A stretch of 64,000 bases of DNA. Source: Pseudophaeobacter flagellatus (GTDB taxonomy: Bacteria; Pseudomonadota; Alphaproteobacteria; Rhodobacterales; Rhodobacteraceae). The DNA lies in the NCBI RefSeq assembly GCF_021228235.1, contig NZ_JAJQRG010000002.1, positions 310,001-374,000 on the forward strand. The letters run 5' to 3'. Made by a program: the position numbers and the translations under genes. Shown here piece by piece: positions 6,828 through 30,599 of the stretch (its first letter is position 1; each line of letters starts with the position of its first letter). Under the pieces are notes generated by a model. The model made no database searches and was not told the origin of the DNA. It saw nothing but the letters and a program-made list of their open reading frames with translations.

Positions 6828-9260
<2,433 letters not shown>

Positions 9261-10843: not shown

Positions 10844-10856
10844 ATTGATTATTTTC

Positions 10857-11207
10857 TTATTTATACCAAGCGATTAAACGGTTCAGAGCGTCGCGCGACG
10901 AGACCTCAACATAAATTCCAGAACCATTAGCAAGCGCCCGAAGCTCAGAACGCTCAAGATCAGCACACTTCTTGCTGTCTAAAATCGAAACTCCTGGAAT
11001 GCTCGGTGGCGTCGGTGGTTCGATCCATATGCGAACAGTCTCAAGATTTGATGGGTAAACGTCGAGCGCCAACACCTTGTCTTTCGATTTGAAGGCCATC
11101 ACCTTTTGGTTTTCCAATCCCTTCCTGGCCCCAGAAGGGACTTTGTTTACTGCCTCACCGAAAGTCAGGACAAGGACGGGCAGTGCGTCGAGAACTCGAA
11201 GGGTCAT
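10857..11207 (-). CDS. Hypothetical protein in the type I RM operon
   Basis: A 116-residue protein with no family I recognise. Its ATG overlaps the hsdS stop (ATGA), and 13 bases separate its stop from the next gene, so it is clearly in the same transcript. The sequence has a hydrophobic N-terminal strand (LDALPVLVLTFGEAV), a basic loop, and a C-terminal segment LRALANGSGIYVEVSSRDALNRLIAWY that looks like a small alpha/beta fold. It has no signal peptide or membrane segment. It could be a modifier or partner of the restriction system or of the nuclease-like protein downstream. That is inference from position. Confidence 0.7.
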   Translation of the reverse strand: MTLRVLDALPVLVLTFGEAVNKVPSGARKGLENQKVMAFKSKDKVLALDVYPSNLETVRIWIEPPTPPSIPGVSILDSKKCADLERSELRALANGSGIYVEVSSRDALNRLIAWYK

Positions 11208-12925
11208 TCAGCGGCTTCCTTGATGTCTGATTTCGGTTCCAGCGCCTCGTGGACGAGGGCTTCGAGGAGACGGGTGCGGGTGGTGTGGGTCGTGGCCATG
11301 GCGGCCTCCAGTCGGTCGCAGAGGGCCATGAGGGCGTCGACCCTGGCCACGATACGGTGTTGTTCGGCGAGGGGCGGGATTGGCAGTGCCAGCGGATAAA
11401 TGTCTTTATTGTTGATCTGCGGCACGGATGTTCCTGAGTTTAGCGCCCAAAGATCAAACGAGTTGAACCATAGACCCACAAACGGAAGCATTTCGGCGAT
11501 GTATGGCTGCATTGCCATGAGGTTACTATCACCGACCACATCAGCTAACGCGATCATTTTGCGGTTGGTTGCAATTGCGCCGCCTCGCTTCGGAAAGATT
11601 ATGCTGCCCTTTGCAAAAACGTCGGACATTCGGTCATCCGCTACATATCTTCCCGAGGTGCAGACCCCATGGCTATTTTCGGGCAACGATAGTTCTGCGA
11701 CCTTGATGTATGGAAGCTCTCCTGCGGTTTTCTCCTCGTCAGAGCGAAGAGCGACGCCACTTCTCAAGTGCGCCACGTCTGCGACTTGAGAAATTACCCA
11801 GCCTACTGGTGCCTTCCACTCCTCCGTTTCGAACACCATTTTCCGAGGCATTTTGGGATCGCGTATTTGCTTGCCCAGTATTTTCTCATTTTTGATTTCT
11901 GCGGCAGCCTTAAGCAATTCCGATGCCGGTTCATCCGCCGGGTCCTGTTCCACCAGTTTGCCGCGGACTGCAAGGCTTAGGATGGTTTGGCGGAGGGTTT
12001 TGATCTGGTCGGCGCGGGTGGTGAGGGAGGTCAGGGCTTCGAGGGCGAAGCGGGCGTGGGCGGGGAAGTCCGAGACTTCGGTTGTCGCATCGACGGACGG
12101 CAAACCGGTTTCCGTTGGCAGGCTCACGCCTGACGATGCTTGCGTGGTGTCGAGGGCGGTCAGGCGGGCGAGGCTGGCGGCCGTGAGCTTGTCGCGCGTC
12201 TCCTCACGGATTTTGCGGGCCTCCTCCAGCCGATCGCAGAGCACCATGAGCTCATCGACCCTCTGTTGCGCTTTCGATGAAATCAGTGGCACAGGAACTT
12301 CAGCGATCCGGCTAATCGTAAGCGTTACGTTGGCTGTGCCGGTCATGCGCGAAACCAACAGTTCCTCCTTGAAAGAGGTTAAATACTCGAACATGAACCG
12401 GGCGGATATCACAGAGGTATCATGTGGGAAAACGGCAGCCAAGATAGAACCCAGAGCGAATTGACCTTCCTGGAAATGAAGGCGGTTGATGCTGGCATTG
12501 CCGTGTCCGGTTGAGGAAACCAGTGGGATAATCGTGGCTGCTCCATCGAAGTCAAAATGATCGCAAGACCCGCGATTGGCGGCAGTCACCACCAACGGAT
12601 ACGGACCTGGAGTGGCCTGCTTTATCGGCGTCTTCCCTTTCTCGATACGTGCAACTTCTCCGAGTGGCGCGAACCGGGAGGTGTCGCTGAAGACTTCTGG
12701 TAAGTGCTCTGGCAAGAGCAACATGGCCTTTTTTGCCTTGGGGATTTTTCCCTCTCTCCGCAGGCTGACTTTAACTGCTTCAATATGGGCTAAGATCTCC
12801 TCAGGGCTTTCCGACTCGTCTTCGTCGAAGCGACCCCCAATCGCAAAAGCAACTGCGAGTTTTCGAAGGCCAATAATGTGGTCCGGCGCATCGCCGATTG
12901 CCTCAGACAGGAGATTGGCTTTCAT
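11204..12925 (-). CDS. hsdS: Type I restriction-modification specificity subunit HsdS
   Basis: The 573-residue DNA-recognition subunit of a type I restriction-modification complex. It has two target recognition domains, about residues 85-230 and 365-530, each followed by a helical spacer. The spacers repeat the same phrase: RVDELMVLCDRLEEA after the first domain and RVDALMALCDRLEAA after the second. Each recognition domain would read one half of a bipartite DNA site. An N-terminal extension of about 80 residues precedes the first recognition domain. The gene overlaps hsdM by four bases upstream and orf116 by four bases downstream. The recognition site cannot be deduced from sequence alone. 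Confidence 0.93.
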   Translation of the reverse strand: MKANLLSEAIGDAPDHIIGLRKLAVAFAIGGRFDEDESESPEEILAHIEAVKVSLRREGKIPKAKKAMLLLPEHLPEVFSDTSRFAPLGEVARIEKGKTPIKQATPGPYPLVVTAANRGSCDHFDFDGAATIIPLVSSTGHGNASINRLHFQEGQFALGSILAAVFPHDTSVISARFMFEYLTSFKEELLVSRMTGTANVTLTISRIAEVPVPLISSKAQQRVDELMVLCDRLEEARKIREETRDKLTAASLARLTALDTTQASSGVSLPTETGLPSVDATTEVSDFPAHARFALEALTSLTTRADQIKTLRQTILSLAVRGKLVEQDPADEPASELLKAAAEIKNEKILGKQIRDPKMPRKMVFETEEWKAPVGWVISQVADVAHLRSGVALRSDEEKTAGELPYIKVAELSLPENSHGVCTSGRYVADDRMSDVFAKGSIIFPKRGGAIATNRKMIALADVVGDSNLMAMQPYIAEMLPFVGLWFNSFDLWALNSGTSVPQINNKDIYPLALPIPPLAEQHRIVARVDALMALCDRLEAAMATTHTTRTRLLEALVHEALEPKSDIKEAAE

Positions 12926-14367
12926 CGGGCCAGCGCCTCGGTCAGGATCGCTTTCAGCTCGGCGCGCAGGCTTTCGACTGAGGCCTCGGTCTTCACCAAA
13001 TCATTCAACAGAGTCTCAGGGTCACCCAGATCGTTTTCAACCACATGGGGGTTCTTGATGTCGAGGTTGAAGCCTCGTTCGCGGATCGTGTCGATCGAGA
13101 CTTTCCAGGCCTGTTCGTTTTCCTCGCGCCCCTCGCGGGTTGCACCGCCCCACCATGCGGCGCAGTCGTCCAGATGCTCCAGCTTGATAGGCCGGGTCAT
13201 GGAATAGGCCTTTTGCCCCTCTGGCACGCGGTGTTCCCAATACCAGATGTCTTGCGTCGGCGTGCCCTTTTCAAAGAACAGCAGGTTGGTGCCGATGGAG
13301 GCGTAGGGTTTGAAGACCGAGTTGGGCAGGCGCACGATGGTGTGCAGGTTGCATTCGGTCAGCAGGTGTTCTTTGAGCCGGGTCTTGATACCCTCGCCAA
13401 AGAGGGAGCCATCGGGCAGGACCACGGCGGCGCGACCGTTCTTTTTCAGAAGGCGGATGATGAGCGCGAGGAACAGGTCAGCTGTTTCTCGTGTCTTGAA
13501 GGCGGGGAAGTTGTTTTCGATTCCGTCCTCTTCCTTGCCGCCAAAGGGCGGGTTGGTTAGGACGATGTCCACCCGTTCGTCCTTGGTCCAACTGATCAGT
13601 GGGCGAGCGAGTGTGTTGTCATGCTTGACCCAGGATGGCTCCTCGACGTTGTGCAACAGCATGTTGGTCGTACAGAGCATGTGCGGCAGCGGCTTCTTTT
13701 CCACAGCGCGAAGTGAGGCCTGCATCAGTGCCTCATCCTCAGGACGCTTGATGTAAGTGTCACGCATGTGACGCATGGCACAGGTCAGAAACCCACCAGT
13801 GCCGCAAGCGGGGTCCATAATGATCTCGCCAGGCTTTGGGTCCATTTGCTGCACCATGAAAGCCGTGACCGCACGAGGTGTGTAGTATTCGCCAGCATTG
13901 CCGGCGTTTTGCAGATCGTTCAGGAGCTGTTCGTAGAGGTCACCGAAGTGCTGGCGTTCGGTCAGAGAGTTGAAATCCACCTCCGCGATTTTGTTTATCA
14001 CTTGCCGCATCAGGGTACCGGATTTCATATAGTTGTAGGCGTCTTCGAAAACCGAGCGGACAACTTTGGCACGCGGAGTGGTCGCGGGCAGCTGTTTCAG
14101 CTTTGGAAAGAGATTGTCGTTGACGAAATCCAATAGGTTGTCGCCGGTGATGCCTTCTGGATCGGCGGCCCAAGTGCGCCATTGCAAATGTGCTGGGATC
14201 GGGGAGGTGTAGTCATCGCTGTTGAACTCCAATGCTTCGTCCTGATCGTCGATAATCTTAAGGAAGAACATCCAGACAAGCTGGGACAAACGCTGAGCAT
14301 CACCGTCGACGCCGACATCTTTACGCATTACGTCTTGGATAGATTTGACAAGGTTTCTCATGGACAT
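12922..14367 (-). CDS. hsdM: Type I restriction-modification methyltransferase HsdM
   Basis: An N6-adenine DNA methyltransferase of 481 residues that protects host DNA and forms the core of the type I complex. The N-terminal helical HsdM domain is followed by the AdoMet-binding motif DPACGTGGF (185-193) and the catalytic motif NPPF (272-275). The sequence TPRAVTAFMVQQMDPKPGE just before motif I is typical of HsdM. It lies five bases after hsdR and overlaps hsdS by four bases (ATGA), so the three subunits should be made in a fixed order. All catalytic motifs are intact, so the enzyme is probably active. Confidence 0.96.
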   Translation of the reverse strand: MSMRNLVKSIQDVMRKDVGVDGDAQRLSQLVWMFFLKIIDDQDEALEFNSDDYTSPIPAHLQWRTWAADPEGITGDNLLDFVNDNLFPKLKQLPATTPRAKVVRSVFEDAYNYMKSGTLMRQVINKIAEVDFNSLTERQHFGDLYEQLLNDLQNAGNAGEYYTPRAVTAFMVQQMDPKPGEIIMDPACGTGGFLTCAMRHMRDTYIKRPEDEALMQASLRAVEKKPLPHMLCTTNMLLHNVEEPSWVKHDNTLARPLISWTKDERVDIVLTNPPFGGKEEDGIENNFPAFKTRETADLFLALIIRLLKKNGRAAVVLPDGSLFGEGIKTRLKEHLLTECNLHTIVRLPNSVFKPYASIGTNLLFFEKGTPTQDIWYWEHRVPEGQKAYSMTRPIKLEHLDDCAAWWGGATREGREENEQAWKVSIDTIRERGFNLDIKNPHVVENDLGDPETLLNDLVKTEASVESLRAELKAILTEALAR

Positions 14368-14372
14368 GGGGG

Positions 14373-16826
14373 TCAGGCACTTTCTTCATAGAGAGCATTC
14401 TGAAGGTCGTGAACGGCCCGCAGGTAGTCAGGTTTCTTGCCGAATGCGCGCATTAACTCAATCGGCGTTCCCATGTGTGAGAACGGATTGATTTGCAAGA
14501 TCTTGGTGTCTTCGAGGTCGAATACGCCTTCGTCAGCATACTTTTCAAGCAGAGCTTCAAGAACTGCGCGGGCTTTGTCGCCATAGCGATTGAATACGTC
14601 CCGCTTCTTAACGCTATCCGCCCGTTCCTTGCGAGTCAGCGGCTTTGCGTCAAACGCGATGTGGCAAACGAGGTCAAACGGATCAAGGTCCTTGTTTAGC
14701 TCTGCACCAATCAGGTTCAGATCAAGACCTTCGTCTGCGAGTTCGTCAATGATGGCTTGTTTGCGATCTTCCGCATTCCAACGCCGCAGAAAATCGTCCA
14801 TAGACGCAAACCGTTTGGTTAGGTGTTTCCGGGTGAAGTCTTTGAGGCTTTCTGTGATGAGGTTTCCGTCAGCATCAAGGTATTCGACCCGTTCCTTCAG
14901 GATCATGGCACCGACACCATCGACGTAGACCTTCCGAATTGGTCCGCTATCACCACCGGTGCCGATCGTTCCTGGGTTTGTTGGGTCAATCAGGATTTCA
15001 ATGCCATCGATTTCGTCGGCCCCGCCACCTTCTCCAACTGTTCCGAGAGCGCCATCCTCCTCCGGAGGCACCATCGGATCATCGCCAGTGGGCTGATAAA
15101 TTTGAACCGGATCGCCGTCGAAATCGGGATCTGCAAAATGACTCGTGGCACCGCGAAAATCCATCAGGGTGAAATAGTATTTGCCCGTGTCCTTGTGCAC
15201 ACGAGTGCCTCTGCCGACGATCTGTTTGAATTCGGTCATGGACCCAATCTGGCGATCAAGGACAATCAGGCGGCATGTCTGGGCGTCCACTCCTGTGCTT
15301 AGAAGACGGGATGTCGTGACGATCACTGGATAGGGCGCTTCAGGATCAATGAAATTCGCAAGCTGGTTGATCCCCTCTTTGTCACTGCCAGTGATCCGCA
15401 TGACATACCGGTTATCTTTCTTAACAAGATCATCGTTTTCATTGATGAGGGCCTGCCGCATGCGCGCAGCATGTTCTTCATCAACGCAGAACACGATGGT
15501 CTTCTGCATCCGGTCACCGCTTTCCCTCAGGAACTGGGTAATCCGTTGCGCAACTAATTTGGTGCGGTCATCAATGACAATGACGCGGTCAAAGTCTTTC
15601 GTGTTGTAGATGCGGTCATCAACCTCGACACCGTCGCGATCAAGCTGACCGGACTCCGGTCGGTAACCAGCCACGTCGCGGTCAATGTGGCATTTGATAA
15701 CTTTGTAGGGTGCCAGGAAGCCGTCGTCGATCCCCTCACGCAACGTGTAGGAATAGACTGGCTCGCCGAAGTAATCGATATTTGAAGCGTATTCAGTTTC
15801 TTTCGGTGTGGCGGTCAGGCCAATATGTGTCGCGCTCGAAAAATGCTCCAGGATTTCACGCCATGCAGAATCATCCGCCGCGCTACCGCGGTGGCACTCA
15901 TCAATGATGATCAGGTCAAAAAAGTCAGGTGAAAGCTCCTTGAAGATTTTCTGGCTCTCCTGAGGACCGGTCAGTGCCTGATAGAGGCCGAGATAGATTT
16001 GATATGCAGTGTTGATGCGGCGCTTCTTGTCGACGGCCAGGGTGAGATGCTCGCTGGTGCCGTCAGGTCTTTCAATAGTCTTCGAGTGCGAAGATAACTT
16101 GGCCATATCTCCGATAAAGGGCCGGAAATCGTTGACCATGGTCTGGTCGATGAGAATGTTGCGATCTGCAAGGAAGAGCACTCGTTTCTTGGCACCAGAC
16201 TTCCAGAGACGCCAAATGATTTGGAAGGCGGTGAGGGTCTTGCCGGTGCCCGTCGCCATAACAAGAAGCAAACGTTGCTGACCTTTGGAGATTGTTTCAA
16301 GCGACGCGTTTACTGCATTCATCTGATAGTATCGTGGCGTCTTTCCATCATCGAAATACGGGTAAAATGCAGTATCAGCTTGGGGATCGGAGATCCCCTT
16401 CCATGCCTTGTATTTTGCAAACAGAGTCTCCGGCGACGGGAAGTCATCCAGACCGATTTGCGCCTCCAATGAAGTGGACTGCCCTGTCGCATCATGGAAA
16501 ACGAAGCCATCACCGTTCGATGAGAAAGCAAAGGGAACCCGCAGCATTTTGGCGTAGGTCAAGGCCTGCTGCATGCCGTCGCTTACACTATGGCGGTTGT
16601 CCTTCGCTTCAATCACAGCGATCGGAATGTTGGGCTTCAGATAGAGCACATAATCTGCTCGTTTTTGGCGACCACGGGCAACCATCTTGCCGCGAACGAT
16701 GATGCGCCCGTCAGTAAGGGTCTTTTCTTCTGAAATCTGCGTTTTGAGATCCCACCCGCATTTGATAAGTGCAGGCATTATGAATTTGCTACATACATCT
16801 CGCTCTGAAAAGCGCTGACCACTCAT
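14373..16826 (-). CDS. hsdR: Type I restriction endonuclease subunit HsdR
   Basis: The motor and cleavage subunit, 817 residues. The N-terminal nuclease domain shows Asp58 (RADYVLYLK) and Glu73-Ala-Lys75 (IAVIEAKDNRHS), the PD-(D/E)XK core. The superfamily 2 helicase part has Walker A ATGTGKT (191-197), the DEAD-box variant DECH (309-312) and the LTATPK motif III. The C-terminal segment after residue 650 would dock on HsdM. The length is somewhat short of EcoKI HsdR but usual for the DEAD-containing EcoEI-like type. It is the first gene of the operon. A TATATT hexamer about 15 bases before the ATG is a possible -10 element, with no convincing -35. Confidence 0.95.
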   Translation of the reverse strand: MSGQRFSERDVCSKFIMPALIKCGWDLKTQISEEKTLTDGRIIVRGKMVARGRQKRADYVLYLKPNIPIAVIEAKDNRHSVSDGMQQALTYAKMLRVPFAFSSNGDGFVFHDATGQSTSLEAQIGLDDFPSPETLFAKYKAWKGISDPQADTAFYPYFDDGKTPRYYQMNAVNASLETISKGQQRLLLVMATGTGKTLTAFQIIWRLWKSGAKKRVLFLADRNILIDQTMVNDFRPFIGDMAKLSSHSKTIERPDGTSEHLTLAVDKKRRINTAYQIYLGLYQALTGPQESQKIFKELSPDFFDLIIIDECHRGSAADDSAWREILEHFSSATHIGLTATPKETEYASNIDYFGEPVYSYTLREGIDDGFLAPYKVIKCHIDRDVAGYRPESGQLDRDGVEVDDRIYNTKDFDRVIVIDDRTKLVAQRITQFLRESGDRMQKTIVFCVDEEHAARMRQALINENDDLVKKDNRYVMRITGSDKEGINQLANFIDPEAPYPVIVTTSRLLSTGVDAQTCRLIVLDRQIGSMTEFKQIVGRGTRVHKDTGKYYFTLMDFRGATSHFADPDFDGDPVQIYQPTGDDPMVPPEEDGALGTVGEGGGADEIDGIEILIDPTNPGTIGTGGDSGPIRKVYVDGVGAMILKERVEYLDADGNLITESLKDFTRKHLTKRFASMDDFLRRWNAEDRKQAIIDELADEGLDLNLIGAELNKDLDPFDLVCHIAFDAKPLTRKERADSVKKRDVFNRYGDKARAVLEALLEKYADEGVFDLEDTKILQINPFSHMGTPIELMRAFGKKPDYLRAVHDLQNALYEESA

Positions 16827-16930: not shown

Positions 16931-17800
16931 TCAATTTTTGTCAGCGAATGATTGGCGGGAATCACTCCACGAAACCTGAGGGCGAGACGAATCTGGATCA
17001 AAAATACCCACGCTTAGCCCTTTCAAGCTCACATCGGACCGGCATTTCTCGATCTGTTGGAGGTAGCGTGTCCAAGATGGATCGCAGATGATCCAGTTCT
17101 TTGCGACGGGTTTGAGTCGCAGTCCGCAAACGCCCAGAAGCTCGTAAATCTCACGAACCTGAACGCCACGCTTGCCAGGTCTGGTTTCGATTGCGACGTG
17201 CGGCAGGCCATTCCGCATAATGGTCAGATCAGCATGAGGTGTCACAACCTTGCCTCCAAACAGTGCGAAATCACCAGGGCCCATGTAGTCCGCCAGATTT
17301 TCCTCCAGATGCAATCTCAGCGCGGAACGGAACGACGAAGCCTTCTGGGCGGGATTGATGTAACCACCGGCCTCCACCGCGGCCGCCTTCTCATAAGCCG
17401 AAATCGCTTTTTTGAACGATTCATTATTGTGAATACTCTCAAGTATCTCAGCGGTCATCTTTTCGACTTGATCGACGTTCTTAGTGAAGATCGTCCGCAT
17501 CTTCAGTGCGTCCGTCAGTGTGAGCTCCTGTTCCCCGTTCAGGAAAACGTCAGGAAAATGCAGTCTAATGAATTCAGTAGCGACCAAAACTTTTCTCATG
17601 CTCATCTCCTGCCTTTTCCGGAGATGTGACACCTTTGTCAGGACCGCTTGCCCACTCGGCAAACCGTAGCGGTCATGGCTATTCATTGCGTGAATCAATG
17701 CGCAACCGAACTCGAGCCAAGTGTCCATGGCTGAGATCTCTTCAAGTGATCTGAACTGTTCATCTGTTTGCCGACCGGTCAATGCAATCCATCCTTGCAT
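16931..17800 (-). CDS. Hypothetical protein between hsdR and the Tn7-like module
   Basis: A protein of up to 334 residues if started at 17935. The upstream portion is antisense to the well-supported tnsA, so I place the start at the internal ATG at 17800 (289 residues). An ATG at 17728 with AAGAG upstream is also possible. The middle is rich in charged helices (KVLVATEFIRLHFPDVFL, EILESIHNNESFKKAI). The C-terminal third has an alpha/beta pattern with HADLTIMRNGLPHVAIETR, which could be a degenerate PD-(D/E)XK core, but the lysine is replaced. I do not recognise the family. It is transcribed toward hsdR and divergent from tnsA, and may be cargo of the Tn7-like element. Confidence 0.6.
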   Translation of the reverse strand: MQGWIALTGRQTDEQFRSLEEISAMDTWLEFGCALIHAMNSHDRYGLPSGQAVLTKVSHLRKRQEMSMRKVLVATEFIRLHFPDVFLNGEQELTLTDALKMRTIFTKNVDQVEKMTAEILESIHNNESFKKAISAYEKAAAVEAGGYINPAQKASSFRSALRLHLEENLADYMGPGDFALFGGKVVTPHADLTIMRNGLPHVAIETRPGKRGVQVREIYELLGVCGLRLKPVAKNWIICDPSWTRYLQQIEKCRSDVSLKGLSVGIFDPDSSRPQVSWSDSRQSFADKN

Positions 17801-17819
17801 TCCTAATAGGAATCGAAGT

Positions 17820-18542
17820 ATGCCAGATTGGGTTATGAAAGTCGATAAGTTTGCATCACCCACCGCTCGCCGTATCCACCAAAGAGGATTGATCAAGAAG
17901 GCCAGCTTCTTGTCAGGCCCGAAGCTGGACGGCATGATTCAAGTTGAAAGTGATCTCGAAGCAACGCTATGCATGCTACTGATGTTGGACCCCCGTGTGG
18001 TGGCCGTTTCTCCTCAACCCGCGACGTTTGATATGATCAGCGGAAAGCGATATTCGGACAAGGAGACCTTAAAGGCCGCTCAGCAGCCGGGCGGCTATAA
18101 GCCCAAGATCTATACACCAGATTTTGAAGCCACCATGGTGTGTAGACGCTCAGTTTTCCTTGAAGCTAAACATACATCATGGCTCGAAGATAAACCCGAA
18201 TATCTCGGATATCCCGGAACGATGGCATCGTGGGGTCTCAAACTACTCATTGCAACCGAAGCAATTCTACAGGCGGCGGCGGCCCAGAATATTCGCATGC
18301 TGAAGTCGGTAATGGATGATGCGCCAGGTCCGGAAAATGCGGAAAGGGCGGCATTACTCGACGATGATGGTCTGCGCTTTGCTCAGATCGCCTCTCTCCC
18401 TGGCTTTTCCGATACTGAGGTGTTGCGGTTGATCGTTGCTGGGGATCTCAGCTTCGACGTTGCCGGCGTCCCTTTGACCAAGAATACAGTTTTGAAGCCC
18501 TCTCGCGGTTCCAAAGCGCATTTGCAGGTCTTTGACCTATGA
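17820..18542 (+). CDS. tnsA: TnsA-like transposon endonuclease
   Basis: A 240-residue protein of the Tn7 TnsA family. TnsA cuts the 5' ends of the transposon while TnsB cuts the 3' ends, giving cut-and-paste movement. The restriction-like catalytic set is visible: Glu43 in IQVESDLEATL, Asp101 in YTPDFEA and Glu115-Ala-Lys117 in VFLEAKHTSW. Between them stands the usual dipeptide-rich SPQP strand. The ATG at 17820 has AGGA eight bases upstream, so I prefer it to the longer frame from 17721. Its stop overlaps the tnsB ATG by four bases. The C-terminal part (after about residue 160) is where TnsA contacts TnsC in Tn7. The call rests on motifs and on the adjacent tnsB. Confidence 0.82.
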   Translation: MPDWVMKVDKFASPTARRIHQRGLIKKASFLSGPKLDGMIQVESDLEATLCMLLMLDPRVVAVSPQPATFDMISGKRYSDKETLKAAQQPGGYKPKIYTPDFEATMVCRRSVFLEAKHTSWLEDKPEYLGYPGTMASWGLKLLIATEAILQAAAAQNIRMLKSVMDDAPGPENAERAALLDDDGLRFAQIASLPGFSDTEVLRLIVAGDLSFDVAGVPLTKNTVLKPSRGSKAHLQVFDL

Positions 18543-20488
18543 ATAGATACATCCTCGAGTATGACGGCCGAAAACTGGCGCTGAATGGTGAAGTTCATGA
18601 GGTTCTTGGCAAGGTTAATGGCAGCGCGGCTTACAGGCTCAGATCGCCCAAAGGCATTGAGCACGAGATCCCAGAAGCTGATTTCCGCACATTTGTTGCC
18701 CAGGGTTTCGTCTCCGACACGTCTGCCGGGCAGCAAGAACAAGTTCTACTGATCTCAGGTGAGCATCAGCGCGAACTTCGATTTAGATCCGGAATTTCGC
18801 GCGAAGTCATCAGAATGCGGGATCAAGGGGTCGCATGGAGCGAAATACATAAAATTTTACGTCATCGTTACGCCGACCGAGAAGAATACGACTGGCGGAA
18901 AAAGGGGTTCCCAACCGTGCGAACCCTACAGATATGGTTGAAGCTCTGGCTTCAAGGCGGTGAACCAAATCTCTTGGAAAAATCAGGTAATTCAGGGAAT
19001 TATTTACCACGTCATGACCATGTTTTCGATGATATCGTCCATGACCTGTTGGAAAAGAGCTACATCGCTTCTGACCGATACACGATTAAATCTCTGACGG
19101 CGGAAGCGGGCAGTATTTACACTGCGAGATGTGAAGAGAACGGCATGAAGCCGAGCCCTCATGGAGAAAAGGTCGTTCGTACAATTGTGAAGCGGCTTCC
19201 ACATGCGGACATCATCAAGGCCAGGATCGGTGGTCCGGAGGGACGTCGTGCTGTGCTTCAAGCTGCGGAGTTCCAAACAGTGACCGCACCTTTGGAGCGC
19301 GTTGAGTTGGACTGTACCGTCGCCGATATCTTCGTCGTAGACGAGGAGTGGGTAGTCCTTGGTCGGCCCACGATATGTGCTGCGATCGATTGTGCGACGG
19401 GGGTTATTGTTGGCATTACAGTTTCCCTCGAAGATCCCAATTCGATCATGGTGGCCAAAACGCTCAAAGAGACGATGACGGTCAAGGATGCTGCTTTCTT
19501 TGAAAAACACGATATCGAGTATCCGATGCAAACGTGTGGACGCTTGCGGGTGGTCGTTACTGACCAAGGCAGTGAGAACTCTGGCGAACTAATCGAGGCC
19601 TGCCTGAAGAATGCCAGCTTCGAACTTCGCAAGAATATCCCGGGACAACCGGATCGAAAGCCGTTCATTGAACGCTTTTTTCTGGAGCTGAACCGCTTCC
19701 TGAGAACTCTTCCCGGAGCGACGCAAACTGATTTGATTGGAGCCAAAGAACGGACCAAGAAGGCACAGCGGGAGGCACAGCTCACTTGTCAGGATCTGGA
19801 GTCAGCCATCCAGAAGTGGCGCTACGATGTCTACGCGCGCAAGTCCAGAAAACGCATTCAAAGCGCCTTAAGAACTCGTGAAGCACCCTATGATTGCTGG
19901 CAACGGCTGGCCGAAGAACATCTGATTATCGAGCCGCCCAGCCGCCATCAGCTCAGGCAGATGTTTTATCTTCGTAAGGGCACCAGAAAGGTGCAGCGGT
20001 ACGGTATCGAATATGAGAAAATCCAGTATTCCTCACCGGAGTTGCGCGAGTATGTAAAATCGGTCGGTCCGGGGCAGTTGGTCGATATCAGCATAGATCC
20101 CACCGATATTAGGGAGATCGCGGTCAGTGACCCGACGACGGGCCACACTTTTTTCGTTTCTGCGAAAGATCCGGATATGCCTGCCATCACATTTGAAGAA
20201 CTCAAAAGAATACGAACGAAACTTGGGCATGACGCAGCGCAGGATCTGAGCGCCAGTGAGATCCTGGCGGCGATTTCGAACGGGCACGCCATTAAGGTTC
20301 GCAAGCCAGGAACAAAGCTCAAGGAGGCGAAACGGAGCGCAGTTCAGAAAGGCCGAACATCAGAGATCGTGAGGAATTCGCGCCGGTCAACTTCAAAGTC
20401 TGAGAGTGTCATTGAAGTTCAACTGCCTACAAGACCGTTGGAACGACCCGCTATCCTGCCGACAGTCAGACAACGGACAAAGTCATGA
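18539..20488 (+). CDS. tnsB: TnsB/TniA-like DDE transposase
   Basis: A 649-residue Mu/TnsB-type integrase-transposase that binds the element ends and joins 3' ends to target DNA. The N-terminal region holds helix-turn-helix DNA-binding segments (around 88-140 and 160-225). The RNase H-like catalytic core has Asp258 (ERVELDCTVAD), Asp342 (VVVTDQGSENSGE) and Glu378 (KPFIERFFLELNRF), with the supporting phrases GRPTICAAIDCATGVIVG and RTLPGAT that mark this family. The C-terminal 150 residues are the beta-barrel and the basic tail expected to reach TnsC. It overlaps tnsA upstream and tnsC downstream by ATGA. The protein appears intact, so end recognition could still work if a partner is supplied. 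Confidence 0.88.
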   Translation: MNRYILEYDGRKLALNGEVHEVLGKVNGSAAYRLRSPKGIEHEIPEADFRTFVAQGFVSDTSAGQQEQVLLISGEHQRELRFRSGISREVIRMRDQGVAWSEIHKILRHRYADREEYDWRKKGFPTVRTLQIWLKLWLQGGEPNLLEKSGNSGNYLPRHDHVFDDIVHDLLEKSYIASDRYTIKSLTAEAGSIYTARCEENGMKPSPHGEKVVRTIVKRLPHADIIKARIGGPEGRRAVLQAAEFQTVTAPLERVELDCTVADIFVVDEEWVVLGRPTICAAIDCATGVIVGITVSLEDPNSIMVAKTLKETMTVKDAAFFEKHDIEYPMQTCGRLRVVVTDQGSENSGELIEACLKNASFELRKNIPGQPDRKPFIERFFLELNRFLRTLPGATQTDLIGAKERTKKAQREAQLTCQDLESAIQKWRYDVYARKSRKRIQSALRTREAPYDCWQRLAEEHLIIEPPSRHQLRQMFYLRKGTRKVQRYGIEYEKIQYSSPELREYVKSVGPGQLVDISIDPTDIREIAVSDPTTGHTFFVSAKDPDMPAITFEELKRIRTKLGHDAAQDLSASEILAAISNGHAIKVRKPGTKLKEAKRSAVQKGRTSEIVRNSRRSTSKSESVIEVQLPTRPLERPAILPTVRQRTKS

Positions 20489-20673
20489 CTATCGTTGATT
20501 TTTCCAAGGCCTTGGATGTCCATGTCGCGCATGAGCGATATGATCAAGTCAGCGCAAATGTACGGGAGTTGATCGAACTCGCTGAGGACCGCGGCGGCTC
20601 GATCATTCCATTTCTTGGTCCGACAAGATGCGGCAAATCGGAGCTGTTGAAGGATAGACAACCTTCTTCTTGA
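20485..20673 (+). pseudogene. tnsC: Truncated TnsC-like ATPase
   Basis: The first 62 codons of a TnsC/TniB-type AAA+ ATPase, the regulator that links the transposase to the target site. The frame begins MTIVDFSKALDVHVAHERYD and reaches the Walker A motif FLGPTRCGKSELL, then ends in a short foreign tail and a stop. Walker B, the sensors and the C-terminal part are missing, so no ATPase can be made. The ATG overlaps the tnsB stop. Right after the break come a short inverted repeat (AGACGGGC at 20675-20682, GCCCGTCT at 20717-20724) and an IS110-type fragment, so the loss is probably due to an insertion or deletion at this point. Confidence 0.75.
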
Positions 20674-20743
20674 AAGACGGGCCTGACGTATTTTCACGAA
20701 GGAGATTTCAGGGAGAGCCCGTCTCGCAATAATCTGTGACATG

Positions 20744-20895
20744 AGGGAGGCGTCGACGCAATCGCTTCACTCACATTCAAAGCCGCTGTCGACGACCCGA
20801 CGCGTTTCAAACGATCACGGACTGTTGGCGCGCATTTTGGCCTGACGCCGAGACGATACCAGTCAGGTGAACATGACAACCCCGGTCGGATATCC
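20744..20895 (+). pseudogene. IS110-family transposase fragment (internal piece)
   Basis: About 50 codons matching the C-terminal (transposase_20) domain of IS110-family transposases: ASLTFKAAVDDPTRFKRSR, then GAHFGLTPRRYQSGEHDNPGRIS. The same stretch occurs in the minus-strand copy at 30184-30591, with several substitutions. Both ends of the domain are lost: upstream sequence no longer encodes the PGVGP segment, and after GRIS the reading diverges. It is a dead remnant. Confidence 0.8.
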
Positions 20896-20977
20896 GCCCT
20901 TACTGCCGAATCCAGCTTCCGGCCCATTCCTGCCGCTCGTATTGTGCATAATGAATGACCGCTTTCGGCTCAACTCA

Positions 20978-23900
20978 TCAATAGATTTCGCTCTCTAAAG
21001 AGCGATTCACACCGTACAGCATCGTAGCTGCCCAGTCACCGAGGACCGCATCGTTGCTCCAAGAAGCGAGCGGTTCTGTGAAGCTCATTAGATGTGGTTT
21101 CAGCGAGCCGCTCCAAGAGCTGGGATAGATGCGCCGGCGCAGCGCACAACGGAACCGCTTTCTACCGCCATAAAGTTTGGCGAGTTTCTGGAGCGCGGGG
21201 TGCCAGATCCACTCGCCGCCTTTTTGTTCCAGGATTGGGAAGAAGGTAACGAGGAACGCGATGCGGCCATCCGGATCGGCCGCAACCCATTCCAGCATGA
21301 GATTGATCGGGGTATCGAATAAGGCTCCGGCGCGGTCGTGCGCGGCGTCATATGCAAAGGGTTTGGTATCGGAGGTGATGGCGTTCAGCCGGTCACGTTC
21401 AATCCGTGTCGCGATTTCGTAGAAGCCTGCGAGGACGGGCCAGACTGCAACCGGTGCTCGCAGAATTATGATTTTGAGGGCACCGCGTAGCGTCTCCGAC
21501 GGACCGCGGCGTCTCGATCCGGTCGTTCGACAGGCATGCACGAGTTGATCGGCAAAGCTACGAGCAAATGTGTCGTCGATCCCGTTAGAGGCGTCGATCA
21601 GGCGGAGCATCCGATCGTAGGCGTGGTCGGCCATAGTAGCACTGCCACCTGCTCCTTCGGCGATCGATGGTGAAAGAATCGCGGACTTTGCCAGATCGAC
21701 TATCTCGGGCGCGAGCGTTTTCTGGCCGTGTGTAAACATGGACAAGATCTCAAGCGCAGCCCATGCTCCTCCGTCATCGTCACGATCAACGAGCGCGTTG
21801 ATGAACTTGGAAAGTGCGGCGTGACCGATTACCTCGAGTCGACGTCCATAGGAAATCGAGACACTTTGAGCCGGTTTAACCCTGCCCTCGCGGACGTCGT
21901 TGGCGAAGTTGTTGAGGCGTTCATCCGTGACGCGGAGCGAGGTCAGAATATACATCGGATTGACCGCGAGCACCTCGGATGTCTCGGCGATGGCTTCAAG
22001 CTTACCGACGCAGTCGGGCCGATCCTGAAGGTGGCGATCGAGAGCAGACAAGAGAGAGGCTACAAAAGTCGCGCCGGCGCGTGTGCCGCTCTCATCTAAC
22101 GCGACGACGGCTTGCTTGAACGTATCCAACGGGTCGAGCAATTCCGGGGCCAAGGCATGCGCAAAGGCCTGTGGCGCATTCATCTCTTCTGTCGCCATGG
22201 CGTGGATAGCGCGGGAAAGCAGGTTCGAATTTCTCGCGATCACGGGCGCAAGTTCTTGCACGCGACGCGCCGAATATTCGTAGTCGGGGTCCTCCTGATC
22301 CTGGGCGTAGCGTTTCGCGGGATCGTGCAGGTCCGCCATCCAGAAGCGGCTATGGAGGCGGACCAGATCAACCGGGTCGGTCGGTAGGGTCGCGTCGAAC
22401 AGCGTTCGCACAGCGAGCGAGAAGTCATTCGGCTCTTCGTGCCGATCGAAATAGAGCCAGTCACCGATCCCGTGAGTGGCGTCGAACCAATGACCAGAGT
22501 AGGCAACCACTTCTTTGACAAATATCTCGAGGGTGGGAAAAAGTTCGGGCGAGAGGAGATTGCGGATGTCGCCCGCGACATGCTCTTCGATTACCCGGCG
22601 CAGTTCGATGTCCTTGCGCCAAAGTCCGAGCAGGCGCTCGAGAGCCCAGTTAAAATAGGCGTTGATAGTGCCGTGATCGTCAGGCACCCATTCCGGGTGA
22701 TAGGCTTCGGCGCCGATCTGCTCGAACTGTTCTGACCGAGAGATATGGGTCTGGATCATCGCTCCGAGCGCTTCGACACCAACGCGGCGGATACGCGGAT
22801 CGTCTTCGTCGAGGGCCTGTTCCAGTGCAACACGACGAAGGCGATCATCGGCCTGCGAGCCTGCGAGCGCAACCTGGAAGAGCTGGCGTAACAGCTGCAA
22901 GATCGGCTGTGAGCCCTCGAGAGGGGCGACGGCCGCGAGCCGCAGAACCATCTGCGCGGCGGGGCCGAAGCTTTTCTGGCGCGAGGCGAGGAGACGCAGC
23001 GCGTCAACGAGCTCTTCAGTGACGGAAATGGCTTCTACATCGGAAAGCGGTACTTGCGCAATCGCCCGGTATAGGGCTGTTCCTGTGCGATCGGGTTCGA
23101 CATGAACGAATGCAGTGAGATAGGGTGCGACGTCGGGTCGGACGATGTTCGCGTCAGCGAAAGAGGTGCGTAATAGCGTATGGATGGCCTCGCTCAGCGT
23201 GCGGGACCGCGCGAGGAAGCGCCAACGGGCGAGCATGGCGTCTCGGTGGTGACACGGCGCACTGCCCAGAAACGCAACCAGTGTGGAGGGGCGCAGATAA
23301 TCGAGGCGACGCAGCGCGAGGAAATTAGCGATCGGACGGGGCTGTACGGCCATTGCGCCATGATTGCGTTCGACCAGATGCTGCCGGCTGGCGATGACGA
23401 GATTCTCGTACAACAGTTCACCCTTCATATGAACGAGCATCTCGGCGAGGTTATCGAAGGCGGCTGGATTCTCATCGGGCGAAAGGCTGTCGAACAATGA
23501 GAGGCATTCGAGCGCCCGCACAGTTTCGCGGTCAGCGCCGACCGCATCCATAATCTGCTGCGCAACATCGTCGACCGACTTTAGGATCGCTCTCTTCTCG
23601 TAGCTCTCGGTAGCGAACACAGCGATGCGGGGAAATCCGTCGCAAAGGTCGGCGATATAGTCGAGTTCATCGGCCTTGGCCTTGGTGAGCTTGGTCTTAA
23701 GGATGCCCCTTATCGTCGAGCGATCGGCCTTGGTGGGCCGAACCATGACGCAATGATCATCATGTTCGAGCCCCTCGGCGCCGATGGTGATGATGCGAAG
23801 CTGGCTACGTTCAGTAAGGGCGAGCGCGTTTAGCTCGCGAGCTTTATCGAGCGGGCATCCGTCTACGACAAGAACTGCGGCCGAGCCCTCCTTCACGATG

Positions 23901-24790
23901 TGGTTCGCGACGTCCCAGAGGCGATCTCCAACCTGGCTGAACTCGCAGAAAATGAAGTTGGCGGCAGCGAGTCCCCTGAGTAGCCCAGTGCCGGTGCTAA
24001 GCGCATGATACAGTGCGCGGGTCTTGCCGATTCCTGAGGCACCCCAGATGCGAACGGAAGTTCCAGGCTCTTCCAATTCGACGAAGAGGCGCTCGGCGAG
24101 TCGAGAAAACTCGATCGCATCGGCCTCATGGGTGCCGAGCGAGAATTTACGGTCAGGGCTATCGACGAACGGTGGCGCGGCGATGTCCGCGCGTTTGCCC
24201 CAATGATCGAGCGTGGAGAAGCCGGCAAGGTCGATCGCAGCGTGCCGCTGCTTGATCCATACAGCGACGCCGGGGTGCGCGCTGGCCCACGCGGCGAGCT
24301 TATTTCCCTCGTATACATCGACCGTGGCGAGATTGGTGGGGTCACCACCGGCGGTCGTGATGCCTTTCTTGATCGCTCTGACGCGATCTGCCGGTTTATT
24401 ACCGACGAGCGCCGTCGCAGTAATGCCGATATAGCTGCCGCCGCGAGCGAGGACGTCGCGCACAGCGTCATTCAGCATCTTGACCGCGACTTTCTTCTTT
24501 TGGGTGGGTTTGGTCCAAACCTCTTTTTCCCACTGAGCGTCGCCCGCGTCCTTCGCCTTGCATTGAAAGATGATGTCGCAGCTTGGGAAAAAATCTGTTG
24601 ATGCTTCGCCACCGGTCCAGACTATCCTTGCGTCCTGACCGCCATCGGCGACTGTGATTTGGAGCGGAACATCGACCCCTCGCAGCGGAACGCCAGCATT
24701 ACGGGCTTCGGCGTAAAGAAGACGGCGCAACAACTCGACGAGGTCGTCTCCAGTGAAATCTTTGATCTCGTTGGGATGGACTGTAAACAT
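20978..24790 (-). CDS. Nuclease-STAND NTPase protein, Avs-like (putative antiphage sensor-effector)
   Basis: A 1270-residue single-gene system. Residues 1-180 look like a restriction-type (Mrr/Cap4-like) nuclease: Asp53 in VADGGQDARIVW and Gln76-Cys-Lys78 in DIIFQCKAKD give the D...QxK pattern. A P-loop NTPase follows, with Walker A GASGIGKT (250-257) and Walker B AAVLVVDGC (304-312), followed by a winged-helix-like region. About 800 residues of alpha-helical repeat character follow to the C-terminus. The order effector - STAND NTPase - long helical sensor is that of Avs proteins, which recognise conserved phage proteins and then activate the nuclease. The C-terminal part resembles nothing I can name, so the trigger is unknown. 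The gene is visibly GC-richer than its neighbours and stands alone on the minus strand, suggesting separate acquisition. Confidence 0.75.
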   Translation of the reverse strand: MFTVHPNEIKDFTGDDLVELLRRLLYAEARNAGVPLRGVDVPLQITVADGGQDARIVWTGGEASTDFFPSCDIIFQCKAKDAGDAQWEKEVWTKPTQKKKVAVKMLNDAVRDVLARGGSYIGITATALVGNKPADRVRAIKKGITTAGGDPTNLATVDVYEGNKLAAWASAHPGVAVWIKQRHAAIDLAGFSTLDHWGKRADIAAPPFVDSPDRKFSLGTHEADAIEFSRLAERLFVELEEPGTSVRIWGASGIGKTRALYHALSTGTGLLRGLAAANFIFCEFSQVGDRLWDVANHIVKEGSAAVLVVDGCPLDKARELNALALTERSQLRIITIGAEGLEHDDHCVMVRPTKADRSTIRGILKTKLTKAKADELDYIADLCDGFPRIAVFATESYEKRAILKSVDDVAQQIMDAVGADRETVRALECLSLFDSLSPDENPAAFDNLAEMLVHMKGELLYENLVIASRQHLVERNHGAMAVQPRPIANFLALRRLDYLRPSTLVAFLGSAPCHHRDAMLARWRFLARSRTLSEAIHTLLRTSFADANIVRPDVAPYLTAFVHVEPDRTGTALYRAIAQVPLSDVEAISVTEELVDALRLLASRQKSFGPAAQMVLRLAAVAPLEGSQPILQLLRQLFQVALAGSQADDRLRRVALEQALDEDDPRIRRVGVEALGAMIQTHISRSEQFEQIGAEAYHPEWVPDDHGTINAYFNWALERLLGLWRKDIELRRVIEEHVAGDIRNLLSPELFPTLEIFVKEVVAYSGHWFDATHGIGDWLYFDRHEEPNDFSLAVRTLFDATLPTDPVDLVRLHSRFWMADLHDPAKRYAQDQEDPDYEYSARRVQELAPVIARNSNLLSRAIHAMATEEMNAPQAFAHALAPELLDPLDTFKQAVVALDESGTRAGATFVASLLSALDRHLQDRPDCVGKLEAIAETSEVLAVNPMYILTSLRVTDERLNNFANDVREGRVKPAQSVSISYGRRLEVIGHAALSKFINALVDRDDDGGAWAALEILSMFTHGQKTLAPEIVDLAKSAILSPSIAEGAGGSATMADHAYDRMLRLIDASNGIDDTFARSFADQLVHACRTTGSRRRGPSETLRGALKIIILRAPVAVWPVLAGFYEIATRIERDRLNAITSDTKPFAYDAAHDRAGALFDTPINLMLEWVAADPDGRIAFLVTFFPILEQKGGEWIWHPALQKLAKLYGGRKRFRCALRRRIYPSSWSGSLKPHLMSFTEPLASWSNDAVLGDWAATMLYGVNRSLESEIY

Positions 24791-25359
24791 ATCGTCTTTC
24801 TAACTCGGCCGCATCGTCGGCGAAACGATAAGATAACCCAAGGCCAAAGGTTTAGATACAGATTAACATTGCCGGGGTGGTTGATATTATGCTCAAGGCG
24901 TTAGCCTCTCAGCATAATTGTTTGTCAGCAGCCCAATTGAAACAGAAAAATGGAACTCGCGTGATGGAGAAAGATCTGTCTTCAGAGAGTGGTCTCGATC
25001 TCCGAGAGTGTTAGCTTTGTTCGTGTTGCCGACCTTGGTGGAAAACGCAGCGAAAGTCGGCTCTCCGCCTTCCCTGTCGGCGTTTCCTAACAACACGAAT
25101 GGTCCATGAGAAACATTCTCTCGGAAATTTGGTGCCGAAATGCAGCCTTGGATCATCGCCCAGACCGAGCAAACATGCGAAGCTCAATCCCAAAATGGAA
25201 CCGACACCCATCAGTTGGACAGGTGCCGGGCCAAGTCTCACCTTTTCACGACTTCAGAGCGTGAACAGCCCGAGGCCTTGGGATAAGCGCCCCATGGGGC
25301 CGCCTGTTTGCCGGCATACCCTACAACAAATAGTTTGTAGGGTATGAGGCCTATCGGAG
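24791..25359. other. Gap without a supportable gene
   Basis: About 570 bases between the Avs-like gene and the next minus-strand gene. Short frames exist on both strands but have no ribosome-binding sites or recognisable protein character. The only structure I see is the inverted repeat at 25315-25346. The promoter of the Avs-like gene should lie near 24795-24900, in an AT-rich stretch. Confidence 0.4.
25315..25346. repeat. Perfect 12-bp inverted repeat
   Basis: CATACCCTACAA (25315-25326) and TTGTAGGGTATG (25335-25346) are perfect reverse complements around an 8-base AT-rich loop. It lies 13 bases beyond the stop of the 135-residue gene. There is no T-run in either direction. It may be a transcript end, an operator or a scar of a mobile element. 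Confidence 0.6.
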
Positions 25360-25767
25360 CTATGTGAAGCCGCTTCCTGCAATCTGTGCTGCGTAACGCC
25401 TGACAGCGTCATCATCGCCATCTTGGATCACAGAGAGTAGATTGCGGCCGTCGAAGACAGCATCTGGCGCGAGCAGTATGTCGATTACGACAAAGGAATC
25501 GTAGCCTTTATGCGCGGCCAGTACAGTCTCAATCCCACGCAAGACTGCCCGATCTTGAAATTGGAATGCCGGGTACCGCCAGTTTGAATCAACTTGGACG
25601 GCGATGAGTTTGCCGGTCTTGCGGCGCTCCACAAGTTCCGCCTGTTCGATGCGCAGGAGGTCACAGACCTGAGCGCTTGTCAGAAAATCACCTGCCATCT
25701 TAGTAAGTTTTTCGCTGTGCTCGACCGAACGCTCAATAGCGCCTGCGAGGGGTGTATGTGACGCCAT
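25360..25767 (-). CDS. Small regulator or antitoxin-like protein, paralogue of the upstream gene
   Basis: A 135-residue protein started at MASHTPLAG because GGAG lies 6-7 bases upstream; the frame could start two codons earlier. Residues 40-60 form a helix-turn-helix-like segment, FLTSAQVCDLLRIEQAELVERR. Next come the strand-rich WRYPAFQFQD and a C-terminal part with LLAPDAVFDGRNLLSVIQDGD. This layout recalls the C-terminal domain of MbcA/ParS/Xre antitoxins (DUF2384), where Leu-x-Pro...Leu-x-Gly...Pro-x-x-x-Leu is conserved. The same layout occurs in the preceding gene, which ends 73 bases upstream. No RES-type toxin gene is adjacent. The antitoxin reading is an inference from fold-level pattern. 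Confidence 0.65.
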   Translation of the reverse strand: MASHTPLAGAIERSVEHSEKLTKMAGDFLTSAQVCDLLRIEQAELVERRKTGKLIAVQVDSNWRYPAFQFQDRAVLRGIETVLAAHKGYDSFVVIDILLAPDAVFDGRNLLSVIQDGDDDAVRRYAAQIAGSGFT

Positions 25768-25801
25768 GGTCATCTCCGTTCTGAAGCACCTTCTTTCATA
25801 G

Positions 25802-25820
25802 TATGGCAAAAGCTTGTGGC
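25802..25820 (-). promoter_or_regulatory. 19-bp motif upstream of the 135-residue gene (copy 1)
   Basis: TATGGCAAAAGCTTGTGGC on the plus strand, 35 bases before the ATG at 25767 and in the gap after the preceding gene. The same 19-mer, with one change, occurs at 26799-26817 upstream of the paralogous gene. It contains the palindrome AAGCTT. It is a candidate operator for one of the two paralogues. Confidence 0.5.
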
Positions 25821-25840
25821 AAAGCAGACATCTGCAGTCA

Positions 25841-27562: not shown

Positions 27563-28936
27563 TTATCTGCCCTCGTATTCTGTTTCCCGCACCTTGGACT
27601 GATACTGTTCCCGCAGATGATCTGCCGTCTGACCGATGCTCGGATATACAGTTGCATCGTTGACGTTGATCCGATCAAGTTCAGCGAGGATTTTTATCTT
27701 CTCTTCCGCTTTAACCGTGATGCGACTGATCCTGATCCCTTTCTGCCCAACATCCGGCAATTTCGCCTCGTGCCCGAACAATAGGAATGCGCCTGATTGC
27801 GATTTGATACGCGAATTGGTGCGCTTAGCCTTCACGCAGACGATTGAGCTAAGATCTTTCGGGATAATTCGTCCTTCGAAAAATCCCTTCTCTGACTTAA
27901 TATGGTGAAGCAGTTTTCCGACGACTTCAGATTTATTGAATTTGCCCTGTTCGAGGCTGACGTCAATTGTGTTCTTTTGTTCGTACGTCAAGTTAGAAAG
28001 GTTGGAAAGACAACTGACGGTATCCGAATCGTAGTATTTCACAGCATCAGAGGTAACCTGAAATATTATGACTTCACCGTCGTCTTGAGGCTGGCTCGAG
28101 CAAGCAAAAAACAGCGCCATCAGCGGATTTCCAGTGATATCAAGCATCCGCGTTGGCAGTCCAAAGTGCTGCATGCGCACAAGGCGATCGAAACAATACT
28201 GGTCACTCTGGAACTCATCATAATGCGCGATCAGCAACTCTTTGCAAAGGCGGTCCTCATTCGGCAAGAATTTCCAATCGCCATTCTCCCATTTTCTCAG
28301 CAGGAACGGTGAAAGTTCATACTTAGCTGTGCCATGCCCTCGAAAAAAAGTCTCGGGATCTTCTTCGATAGGGGCTTCGTAGAGTAATTTTAAGAAAGAT
28401 GCGACATCGGTAGCGGTGCCAAGTATTTTTTTCTCCCGAGGCGGTGGCTCGATCTCTGCATCGACTTCAGGTTGTTCTATGAGCCTATCGATCCCTTCAG
28501 AAAACTTCGGGAAGAAATCGCTCAAACGGCGCAACACTTCTACAGAGTCTCCTTCACGTACCGCCCAGTGTCCGCGGTAGAGCTGGATTCTGTCCACACT
28601 GAATATTTTATGGGCATCTTCAACGTTATCGAAATTCACTTCACCAAAGTCCATCAGCGTGTCGAAGGTAATGGAAACCGTCAAATCAGAATGCTTTAGG
28701 TCGGCGATTCTCCCATATTTTATGACCATGGAGTTGCCGTCTGCATGCGAGTCTATCTCGCTGCACACGAAGGTAGGCAGGCTCTTGAGAAAGGTAACGG
28801 ATTTATCACTGAGGCCTTCAAGCCGTTTCTCGATGGCAACCGGAGTGGACTCAAATAAGCGGCCCCTGAGTATGGTCATATTATCGTTAATACGGTCTTT
28901 ATCGGTAATAGAGATATAATTGAAGTTTTCGCTCAT
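27563..28936 (-). CDS. FRG domain-containing protein
   Basis: A 457-residue protein with an FRG domain around residues 175-330. The naming residues are visible in ETFFRGHGTAKYELSPFLLR (197-200 Phe-Phe-Arg-Gly), and the second conserved block is MQHFGLPTRMLDITGNPLMALFFAC, here split at QHFGLPTRMLDIT (256-268). FRG proteins are found in defence islands and prophages; the domain is related to ADP-ribosyltransferase-like folds, but the exact activity is poorly known. The N-terminal 170 residues (with FDTLMDFGEVNFDNVED) resemble nothing I can name and may be a sensor. The gene stands alone on the minus strand, in AT-richer sequence than the core genes. An antiphage role is inferred from domain and location. 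Confidence 0.8.
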   Translation of the reverse strand: MSENFNYISITDKDRINDNMTILRGRLFESTPVAIEKRLEGLSDKSVTFLKSLPTFVCSEIDSHADGNSMVIKYGRIADLKHSDLTVSITFDTLMDFGEVNFDNVEDAHKIFSVDRIQLYRGHWAVREGDSVEVLRRLSDFFPKFSEGIDRLIEQPEVDAEIEPPPREKKILGTATDVASFLKLLYEAPIEEDPETFFRGHGTAKYELSPFLLRKWENGDWKFLPNEDRLCKELLIAHYDEFQSDQYCFDRLVRMQHFGLPTRMLDITGNPLMALFFACSSQPQDDGEVIIFQVTSDAVKYYDSDTVSCLSNLSNLTYEQKNTIDVSLEQGKFNKSEVVGKLLHHIKSEKGFFEGRIIPKDLSSIVCVKAKRTNSRIKSQSGAFLLFGHEAKLPDVGQKGIRISRITVKAEEKIKILAELDRINVNDATVYPSIGQTADHLREQYQSKVRETEYEGR

Positions 28937-30591: not shown

Positions 30592-30599
30592 CGATAAGC

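Follow-up and report, generated by a model that had tools for sequence, protein, structure and literature searches.

A putative antiphage receptor of the PD-λ-4_A family, with a predicted nuclease effector and a STAND switch, in a genomic island of Pseudophaeobacter flagellatus

What does the 1270-residue protein do that is encoded in a 64,000-nucleotide stretch of the Pseudophaeobacter flagellatus genome (contig NZ_JAJQRG010000002.1, positions 310,001 to 374,000 of the forward strand; hereafter the window), and is it, as a preliminary description had proposed, the product of a new Avs-type defence gene? We conclude, with a probability of roughly 75%, that the protein is an NLR-like antiphage receptor from the PD-Lambda-4_A family, which combines a predicted sensor, STAND switch and nuclease effector in a single chain. 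This reading is based on homology, domain order, invariant motifs, a STAND-like model, an effector swap among relatives, the absence of the partner gene PD-Lambda-4_B, recombination between alleles and the sharp edges of the unit that holds the gene. The defence neighbours hsdRMS and PDC-S15, as well as relatives on plasmids and on one viral contig, were also counted in its favour. The gene and its parts are the following:

20978..24790, minus strand: PD-Lambda-4_A-like nuclease-STAND-helical repeat gene (1270 amino acids, PDLC03991 match)
24236..24790, minus strand: predicted PD-(D/E)xK-type nuclease domain, residues 1-185, with E28, D49-G-G-x-D53 and Q76-x-K78 (motif and model)
23726..24118, minus strand: P-loop NTPase core, residues 225-355 (model, Foldseek, alignment)
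24020-24043, minus strand: Walker A GASGIGKT, residues 250-257 (alignment)
23855-23881, minus strand: Walker B, residues 304-312, with strand LVVD at 307-310 (alignment)
23291..23725, minus strand: residues 356-500, which we read as the helical lid and winged-helix-like part of the STAND module (model secondary structure, Foldseek)
20981..23290, minus strand: helical superhelix, predicted sensor, residues 501-1270 (model, Foldseek)
about 22303, minus strand: allele recombination break, near residue 830 (maximum chi-square)
20920..25072, minus strand: sharp-edged unit of ~4.15 kb, the gene with ~280 bp upstream and ~60 bp downstream (DNA similarity)

The open reading frame (ORF) is intact, with an ATG start and 1270 codons followed by a stop. 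Compared with three close relatives, it shows an overall ratio of non-synonymous to synonymous substitution rates (dN/dS) of 0.22-0.26 and is therefore not a chance ORF, which bears out that the gene is real. Across five pairs the overall ratio is 0.22-0.29, and 0.11-0.40 when taken region by region; at that resolution, no positive selection was detected in the receptor gene. A promoter and terminator scan of 20400-25400 gave nothing above chance, the gene's strand lacking a promoter-like site, and the sole match of an Rfam scan was a tRNA.

PADLOC reports a single family for the window protein, PD-Lambda-4_A (PDLC03991), with residues 1-1232 aligned to positions 3-1229 of the 1283 in the profile at E 5.6e-48, while the two remaining A profiles of PADLOC, PDLC03989 and PDLC03990, leave the protein unmatched. 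The same family matches all 11 members of our alignment A4, the window protein counted in. The C-terminal sensor had been described as resembling nothing known; an orphan sensor is ruled out by this match, which covers the protein almost end to end. Judged by its sequence, the window protein is a distant relative of PD-λ-4_A, even if single-protein searches of Pfam, NCBIfam and PDB sequences gave no credible match for it. For comparison we aligned 33 of 42 listed ORF rows, having excluded fragments, split pieces and one weak paralogue. A maximum likelihood tree of the STAND and sensor parts (29 of the 33 rows, the four partial ones left out; midpoint root, some long branches) separates a 14-row clade with the window protein from a 15-row clade with E. 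coli PD-λ-4, and the split has support 100/100. The nearest kin are found in Ruegeria meonggei (90% identity), a Thioclava metagenome-assembled genome (87%) and Phaeobacter sp. CECT 5382 (86%), followed by a Sphingomonas plasmid (71%) and Mesorhizobium (66%).

The central part carries the Walker A and Walker B motifs expected from the preliminary description, and both were confirmed: the Walker A pattern G....GK[ST] and the Walker B aspartate are retained in 33 of 33 aligned rows. In a Foldseek search with the model of residues 1-530, the leading ranks are taken by NRC2, NRC3, Avs3 with terminase (8dgc, ranks 4 and 6), NRC4 and CED-4, with the STAND protein 6mfv at rank 14. Furthermore, the top match of an NTPase-region profile among PDB sequences is the STAND sensor PH0952 (6mfv), at a marginal E of 0.012, and NLRs appear from E 0.059, interspersed with septin, TnsC and RFC. 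The whole-family profile retrieved from the PDB a GAF-domain protein and DevS (E 0.005), Protein C (0.06), NRC3 (0.11) and TnsC (1.5); the first two matches fall in the helical sensor and were judged to be chance. A housekeeping NTPase is unsupported by the Pfam, NCBIfam and PDB sequence searches, and no profile search placed the domain in such a family, in line with the earlier view. As modelled, the central part is a STAND NTPase with an NLR-like fold, for which the support from sequence profiles is marginal.

PD-(D/E)xK nucleases have a conserved D and an (E/Q)xK motif on neighbouring strands. In the model of the window protein, Asp53 and Gln76/Lys78 lie on the adjacent strands 52-58 and 73-78, and Glu28 lies on the preceding helix; the pLDDT (predicted local distance difference test) of 10-residue blocks around these strands is 49-81. 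The triad of Asp53, Gln76 and Lys78 that had been noticed earlier is present and, together with Asp49, Gly50 and Gly51, invariant in all 29 rows with the N-terminal domain (the 33 rows minus three hydrolase-bearing and one truncated), and Glu28 is found in 27 of these 29. The nuclease and Walker motifs of the window protein also occur in the E. coli rows L061 and L062. Invariant motifs and model topology thus suggest that the N-terminus is a PD-(D/E)xK-type nuclease domain. The Foldseek matches of residues 1-530 come without residue ranges and are not attributable to this domain, and a Pfam AIRS match on residues 96-148, under cutoff (E 0.011; 5 of 11 members, best 1.5e-4), was judged to be chance.

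The effector appears to be exchangeable within the family, as it is in modular NLR and Avs receptors. In three plasmid-borne relatives, from Enterobacter roggenkampii (L059, 4026-8147; DUF676 E 8.7e-6), Lelliottia (L060, 4026-8153; DUF676 4.3e-6, Abhydrolase_6 9.5e-7) and Vibrio halioticoli (L069, 3203-7330; DUF676 E 2.7e-6), an α/β-hydrolase replaces the nuclease: ~265 residues that resemble such hydrolases precede the family homology, which starts at profile position 176, and the STAND and sensor parts are kept. The three form one clade within the PD-λ-4 side of the tree (support 100/99), which is consistent with one replacement event. Since the 15 plasmid records inspected, out of 42 with relatives, were a non-random choice that partly favoured late-starting matches, the three hydrolase-bearing relatives illustrate effector types and do not give a rate. 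Another family member (L047, 538-5256) has an N-terminal extension of ~320 residues that starts with an HTH_3 domain.

The long C-terminal helical repeat of the preliminary description is borne out by the model of residues 500-1270 (6 sequences, mean pLDDT 79.1), which is almost wholly helical and forms a superhelix. Its Foldseek matches begin with HEAT-type karyopherins and also include CAND1 and condensin; among the 50 matches listed, TM-scores are 0.15-0.34 and root-mean-square deviations at least 16 Å, and therefore we take from them a helical superhelix and nothing finer.

For the window gene and its relatives L001 and L002, the best division of 426 informative sites falls at nucleotide 2488 (residue 830). 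Left of it, the window gene groups with L001 at 184 sites and L001 with L002 at 39; right of it, the numbers are 40 and 163. The maximum chi-square of 168.1 was reached by none of 1000 shuffles, the largest of which gave 17.3. The synonymous distance between the window gene and L001 is 0.049-0.129 in residues 1-770 but climbs to 0.345-0.448 in residues 771-1270, which argues for recombination rather than constraint. Altogether, the alignments point to receptor alleles that recombine near residue 830. Since the non-coding edges of the unit are only 78-80% alike between the window and L001, it may be the N-terminal part that came to be shared, instead of the C-terminal part being a newcomer.

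We thus propose a mechanism in which the C-terminal superhelix (~501-1270) would bind a phage product, whereupon the central STAND NTPase (~225-500) would pass from a closed state to an ATP-bound oligomer. The oligomer would bring the N-terminal PD-(D/E)xK-type domains together so that DNA could be cut, and the cutting would stop the infection, probably at a cost to the cell.

Several observations weigh against this proposal. The model of residues 1-530 given here (7 sequences, mean pLDDT 71.2) is the best of five, which span mean values from 71.2 to 49.1. Its Foldseek TM-scores are low (0.20-0.34 by query), perhaps because the domains sit differently relative to one another, and ORC, p97 and other AAA+ proteins come after the leading matches. 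No nuclease match for the N-terminal domain came from Pfam, from NCBIfam or from PDB sequences searched with a 27-row profile, an outcome that the preliminary description had named as one that would refute its proposal; the nuclease call is carried by invariant motifs and model topology, and the fold is unconfirmed. The protein is also remote from E. coli PD-λ-4_A, with 161 bits against the PD-Lambda-4_A profile, compared with 2531.7 bits for E. coli M19 (L061) and 2106.7 for STEC434 (L062). The partner PD-Lambda-4_B (PDLC03992) is absent from the whole genome that contains the window, though it is adjacent in L061 and an E. coli control genome matches. Finally, a tblastn search of GenBank phage records found no relative.

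The gene lies in an AT-richer island between a gene ending at 9260, which we read as gyrB-like, and tRNA-Leu at 31655-31741. The preliminary description noted that it is GC-rich next to its neighbours and inferred that it had probably come separately. Indeed, its GC content (59.1%) exceeds that of the remainder of the island (52.0%), but it resembles that of the window beyond the island (58.1% and 59.9%), so that GC alone is no proof of separate arrival. The case for such an arrival comes instead from the sharp-edged unit, which is common to other contexts. Window DNA similarity is limited to 20920-25072 with L001 (there 9719-13871), 20920-25069 with L002 (9723-13871) and 20931-25076 with L004 (451-4596), and the alignments collapse beyond. 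In L001, a Tn7-like set lies close to the receptor gene, with TnsB called by PADLOC and TnsA, TnsC and TniQ by our reading; we read an acyl-CoA-synthetase-like gene beside the unit in L002 and an integrase-like gene near it in L004. The unit has neither another large ORF nor a transposase of its own, and an 87-aa ORF (24893-25156) that spans its edge has no PADLOC match.

Patterns made from the edges matched the genome at 0 places for the right edge (which fits its own copy imperfectly) and at 3 for the left (with one mismatch, its own copy included); that the edges are a known dispersed repeat was rejected. Weak left-edge-like stretches occur at 29111-29181 of the window and at 4660-4717 of L004. 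No empty site was found, as no alignment crossed the join of the L002 flanks in 99 genomes (at most six candidates scored in each); in G010, apparently the genome of L002 itself, the flanks matched in separate pieces.

Could the protein instead be a genuine Avs (AVAST) receptor, sensing large terminase or portal in the manner of Avs1-4? PMC12931631 defines Avs proteins by an N-terminal effector, a central STAND NTPase and a C-terminal repeat sensor. It gives the effector as a nuclease in Avs1-4 and Sir2 in Avs5, and describes Avs1-4 as STAND proteins with a nuclease effector whose targets are terminase, portal or Ksap1. The window protein shows the same plan in models, Foldseek matches and alignment, which support the earlier order of nuclease-type motifs, STAND NTPase and long helical repeat; the N-terminal model has Avs3-terminase (8dgc) among its leading matches, and a family that varies its effectors on one switch-plus-sensor fits the Avs pattern. 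Nevertheless, PADLOC, whose library includes Avs models, gives PD-Lambda-4_A as the sole family and no Avs family at E up to 1 for the window protein or up to 0.1 for the 11 A4 members, and no Avs entry is among the 50 matches listed for the C-terminal model. It is therefore not an Avs member by sequence, and we consider a true Avs receptor unlikely. Of the proposed new Avs-type defence gene, the plan remains and the family does not: the window protein would work like Avs, being Avs in plan but not in family.

Other known systems share parts of this architecture. NRC2, NRC3, NRC4 and CED-4 have a STAND/NB-ARC-like core that is alike by Foldseek, with marginal profile matches to NLRs, but plant NLRs and CED-4 differ in their N-terminal effector and their repeats and show no clear sequence kinship. 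PH0952 (6mfv) is alike in its STAND core by both profile and Foldseek, yet it has, by its title, a tetratricopeptide sensor, and its profile match is confined to the NTPase part. E. coli PD-λ-4 A resembles the window protein near end to end, with the same domain order and the same nuclease and Walker motifs, whereas the window protein stands apart in its separate deep clade, its genome without B and its low profile score. The review PMC10952713 tabulates PD-λ-4 under P-loop NTPase and credits it to the selection that Vassallo et al. (2022) carried out in E. coli; the antiphage selection in E. coli is reported in PMC9519451, the accessible text of which does not carry the name PD-λ-4. Titles and abstract openings held no description of PD-λ-4_A as a nuclease-STAND receptor, in a search outside which supplements, preprints and most subscription papers lay.

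A further alternative is that the receptor is incomplete here and needs PD-Lambda-4_B or an unrecognised neighbour, which would accord with the lack of B in its own genome. In E. coli M19 (L061), B adjoins A (544 bits, positions 1-245 of 303); its C-terminal part matches a second overlapping ORF, so that this copy of B (L061, 10898-11807) may be broken. By BLAST and phmmer, a B-like ORF flanks 2 of 37 A loci, namely L061 and L048, in the latter as a fragment at the edge. The flanks are uneven: some are cut short where a contig ends, and others reach about 10 kb. In E. coli STEC434 (L062), A occurs without B among the two neighbours scanned. Moreover, among the 18 genomes or records in which A matches, 17 lack B, and the exception, G104, has it on another contig (G010 and G445 among the 18 look like one genome, and the A match of G093 is short and weak). 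The shared ~4.15 kb unit is without another large gene and selection on A persists, which makes a dependence on a neighbour improbable. With B lacking in its own genome and in most that carry A, the window clade looks like a one-gene form, though this does not prove B dispensable.

With the own genome counted in each case, the PD-Lambda-4_A profile matched 4 of 100 relatives, the window protein as query 9 of 385 genomes from the class, and the A4 profile 8 of 398 genomes of the phylum. With L058 as query, 173 of 5,426 E. coli genomes matched, none over more than 80% of the query, and two were inspected. By tblastn, 42 of 72,556 plasmid records contain relatives, 16 of them with one place that covers at least 80% of the query. 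Among viral contigs, a search with the A4 alignment found one relative (L044), near which lies an HTH_3/S24 repressor-like gene, and the queries L024, L013 and L015 found 0, 0 and 1. Two loci are unusual: in Haloarcula marina (L068, 3989-7766) the family gene consists of two overlapping ORFs, split after the NTPase core, and just upstream of the Rhizobium relative (L023, 3819-7934) a 1372-aa gene whose similarity to the family profile is weak and scattered (25.9 bits) perhaps encodes a second, diverged STAND receptor. That the gene is a STAND regulator or addiction-like gene stabilising mobile elements, as its plasmid-borne relatives and the TnsB-like genes adjoining it in the window and in L001 could suggest, is very improbable, given that it is homologous to part of an antiphage system obtained by selection and has other defence genes nearby, here and in L058.

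The island holds these further features:

11204..16826, minus strand: hsdS, hsdM, hsdR type I restriction-modification genes (hsdR by PADLOC)
17721..18542, plus strand: TnsA-like gene (Pfam Tn7_TnsA-like_N E 0.067, NCBIfam TnsA_like E 0.019, both under cutoffs)
18539..20488, plus strand: TnsB-like transposase (Mu-transpos_C 4.5e-10, PADLOC TnsB 8.7e-23)
27563..28936, minus strand: FRG-domain protein, PADLOC candidate PDC-S15 (domain and PADLOC match)

The weak TnsA-like call is supported by the TnsB-like gene that follows it. The latter is 25% identical to the L001 TnsB; a TnsC or TniQ counterpart was not found in the window, where the L001 TnsC and TniQ give chance matches only. The pair (17721-20488), perhaps the remnant of a Tn7-like element, stops about 490 bp short of the receptor gene. 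IS110-type transposase remains flank the receptor region at 20749-20895, just outside the unit edge, and at 30187-30681. Two small genes upstream of the receptor (25360-26605) have HTH_17 and Xre/MbcA/ParS C-terminal (antitoxin-like) matches under cutoffs. Elsewhere in the island, a 452-aa protein beside the gyrB-like gene (9485-10843), without a credible match in Pfam, PADLOC or NCBIfam, carries a possible nuclease-like motif (TPDLHV…WAVECKR). A 334-aa protein (16931-17935), which overlaps the TnsA-like gene on the opposite strand, matches a type I restriction enzyme weakly (E 0.016), and a 179-aa protein (29347-29886) has a weak HEPN match under cutoff (E 0.016).

In summary, reading PD-λ-4_A as a nuclease-STAND-repeat receptor whose effector can be replaced supplies a mechanism open to testing and directs attention to an NLR-like class. 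Tentatively, PD-λ-4_A and its sister clade could constitute a large unrecognised class of this kind parallel to Avs, with nuclease or esterase-like effectors, a reshuffled HEAT-like sensor and a phage ligand other than those of Avs1-4, in which the window clade would work from one gene and spread as a compact cassette of ~4.15 kb. Being seemingly independent of B, the window clade would be a simple place to seek the phage ligand.

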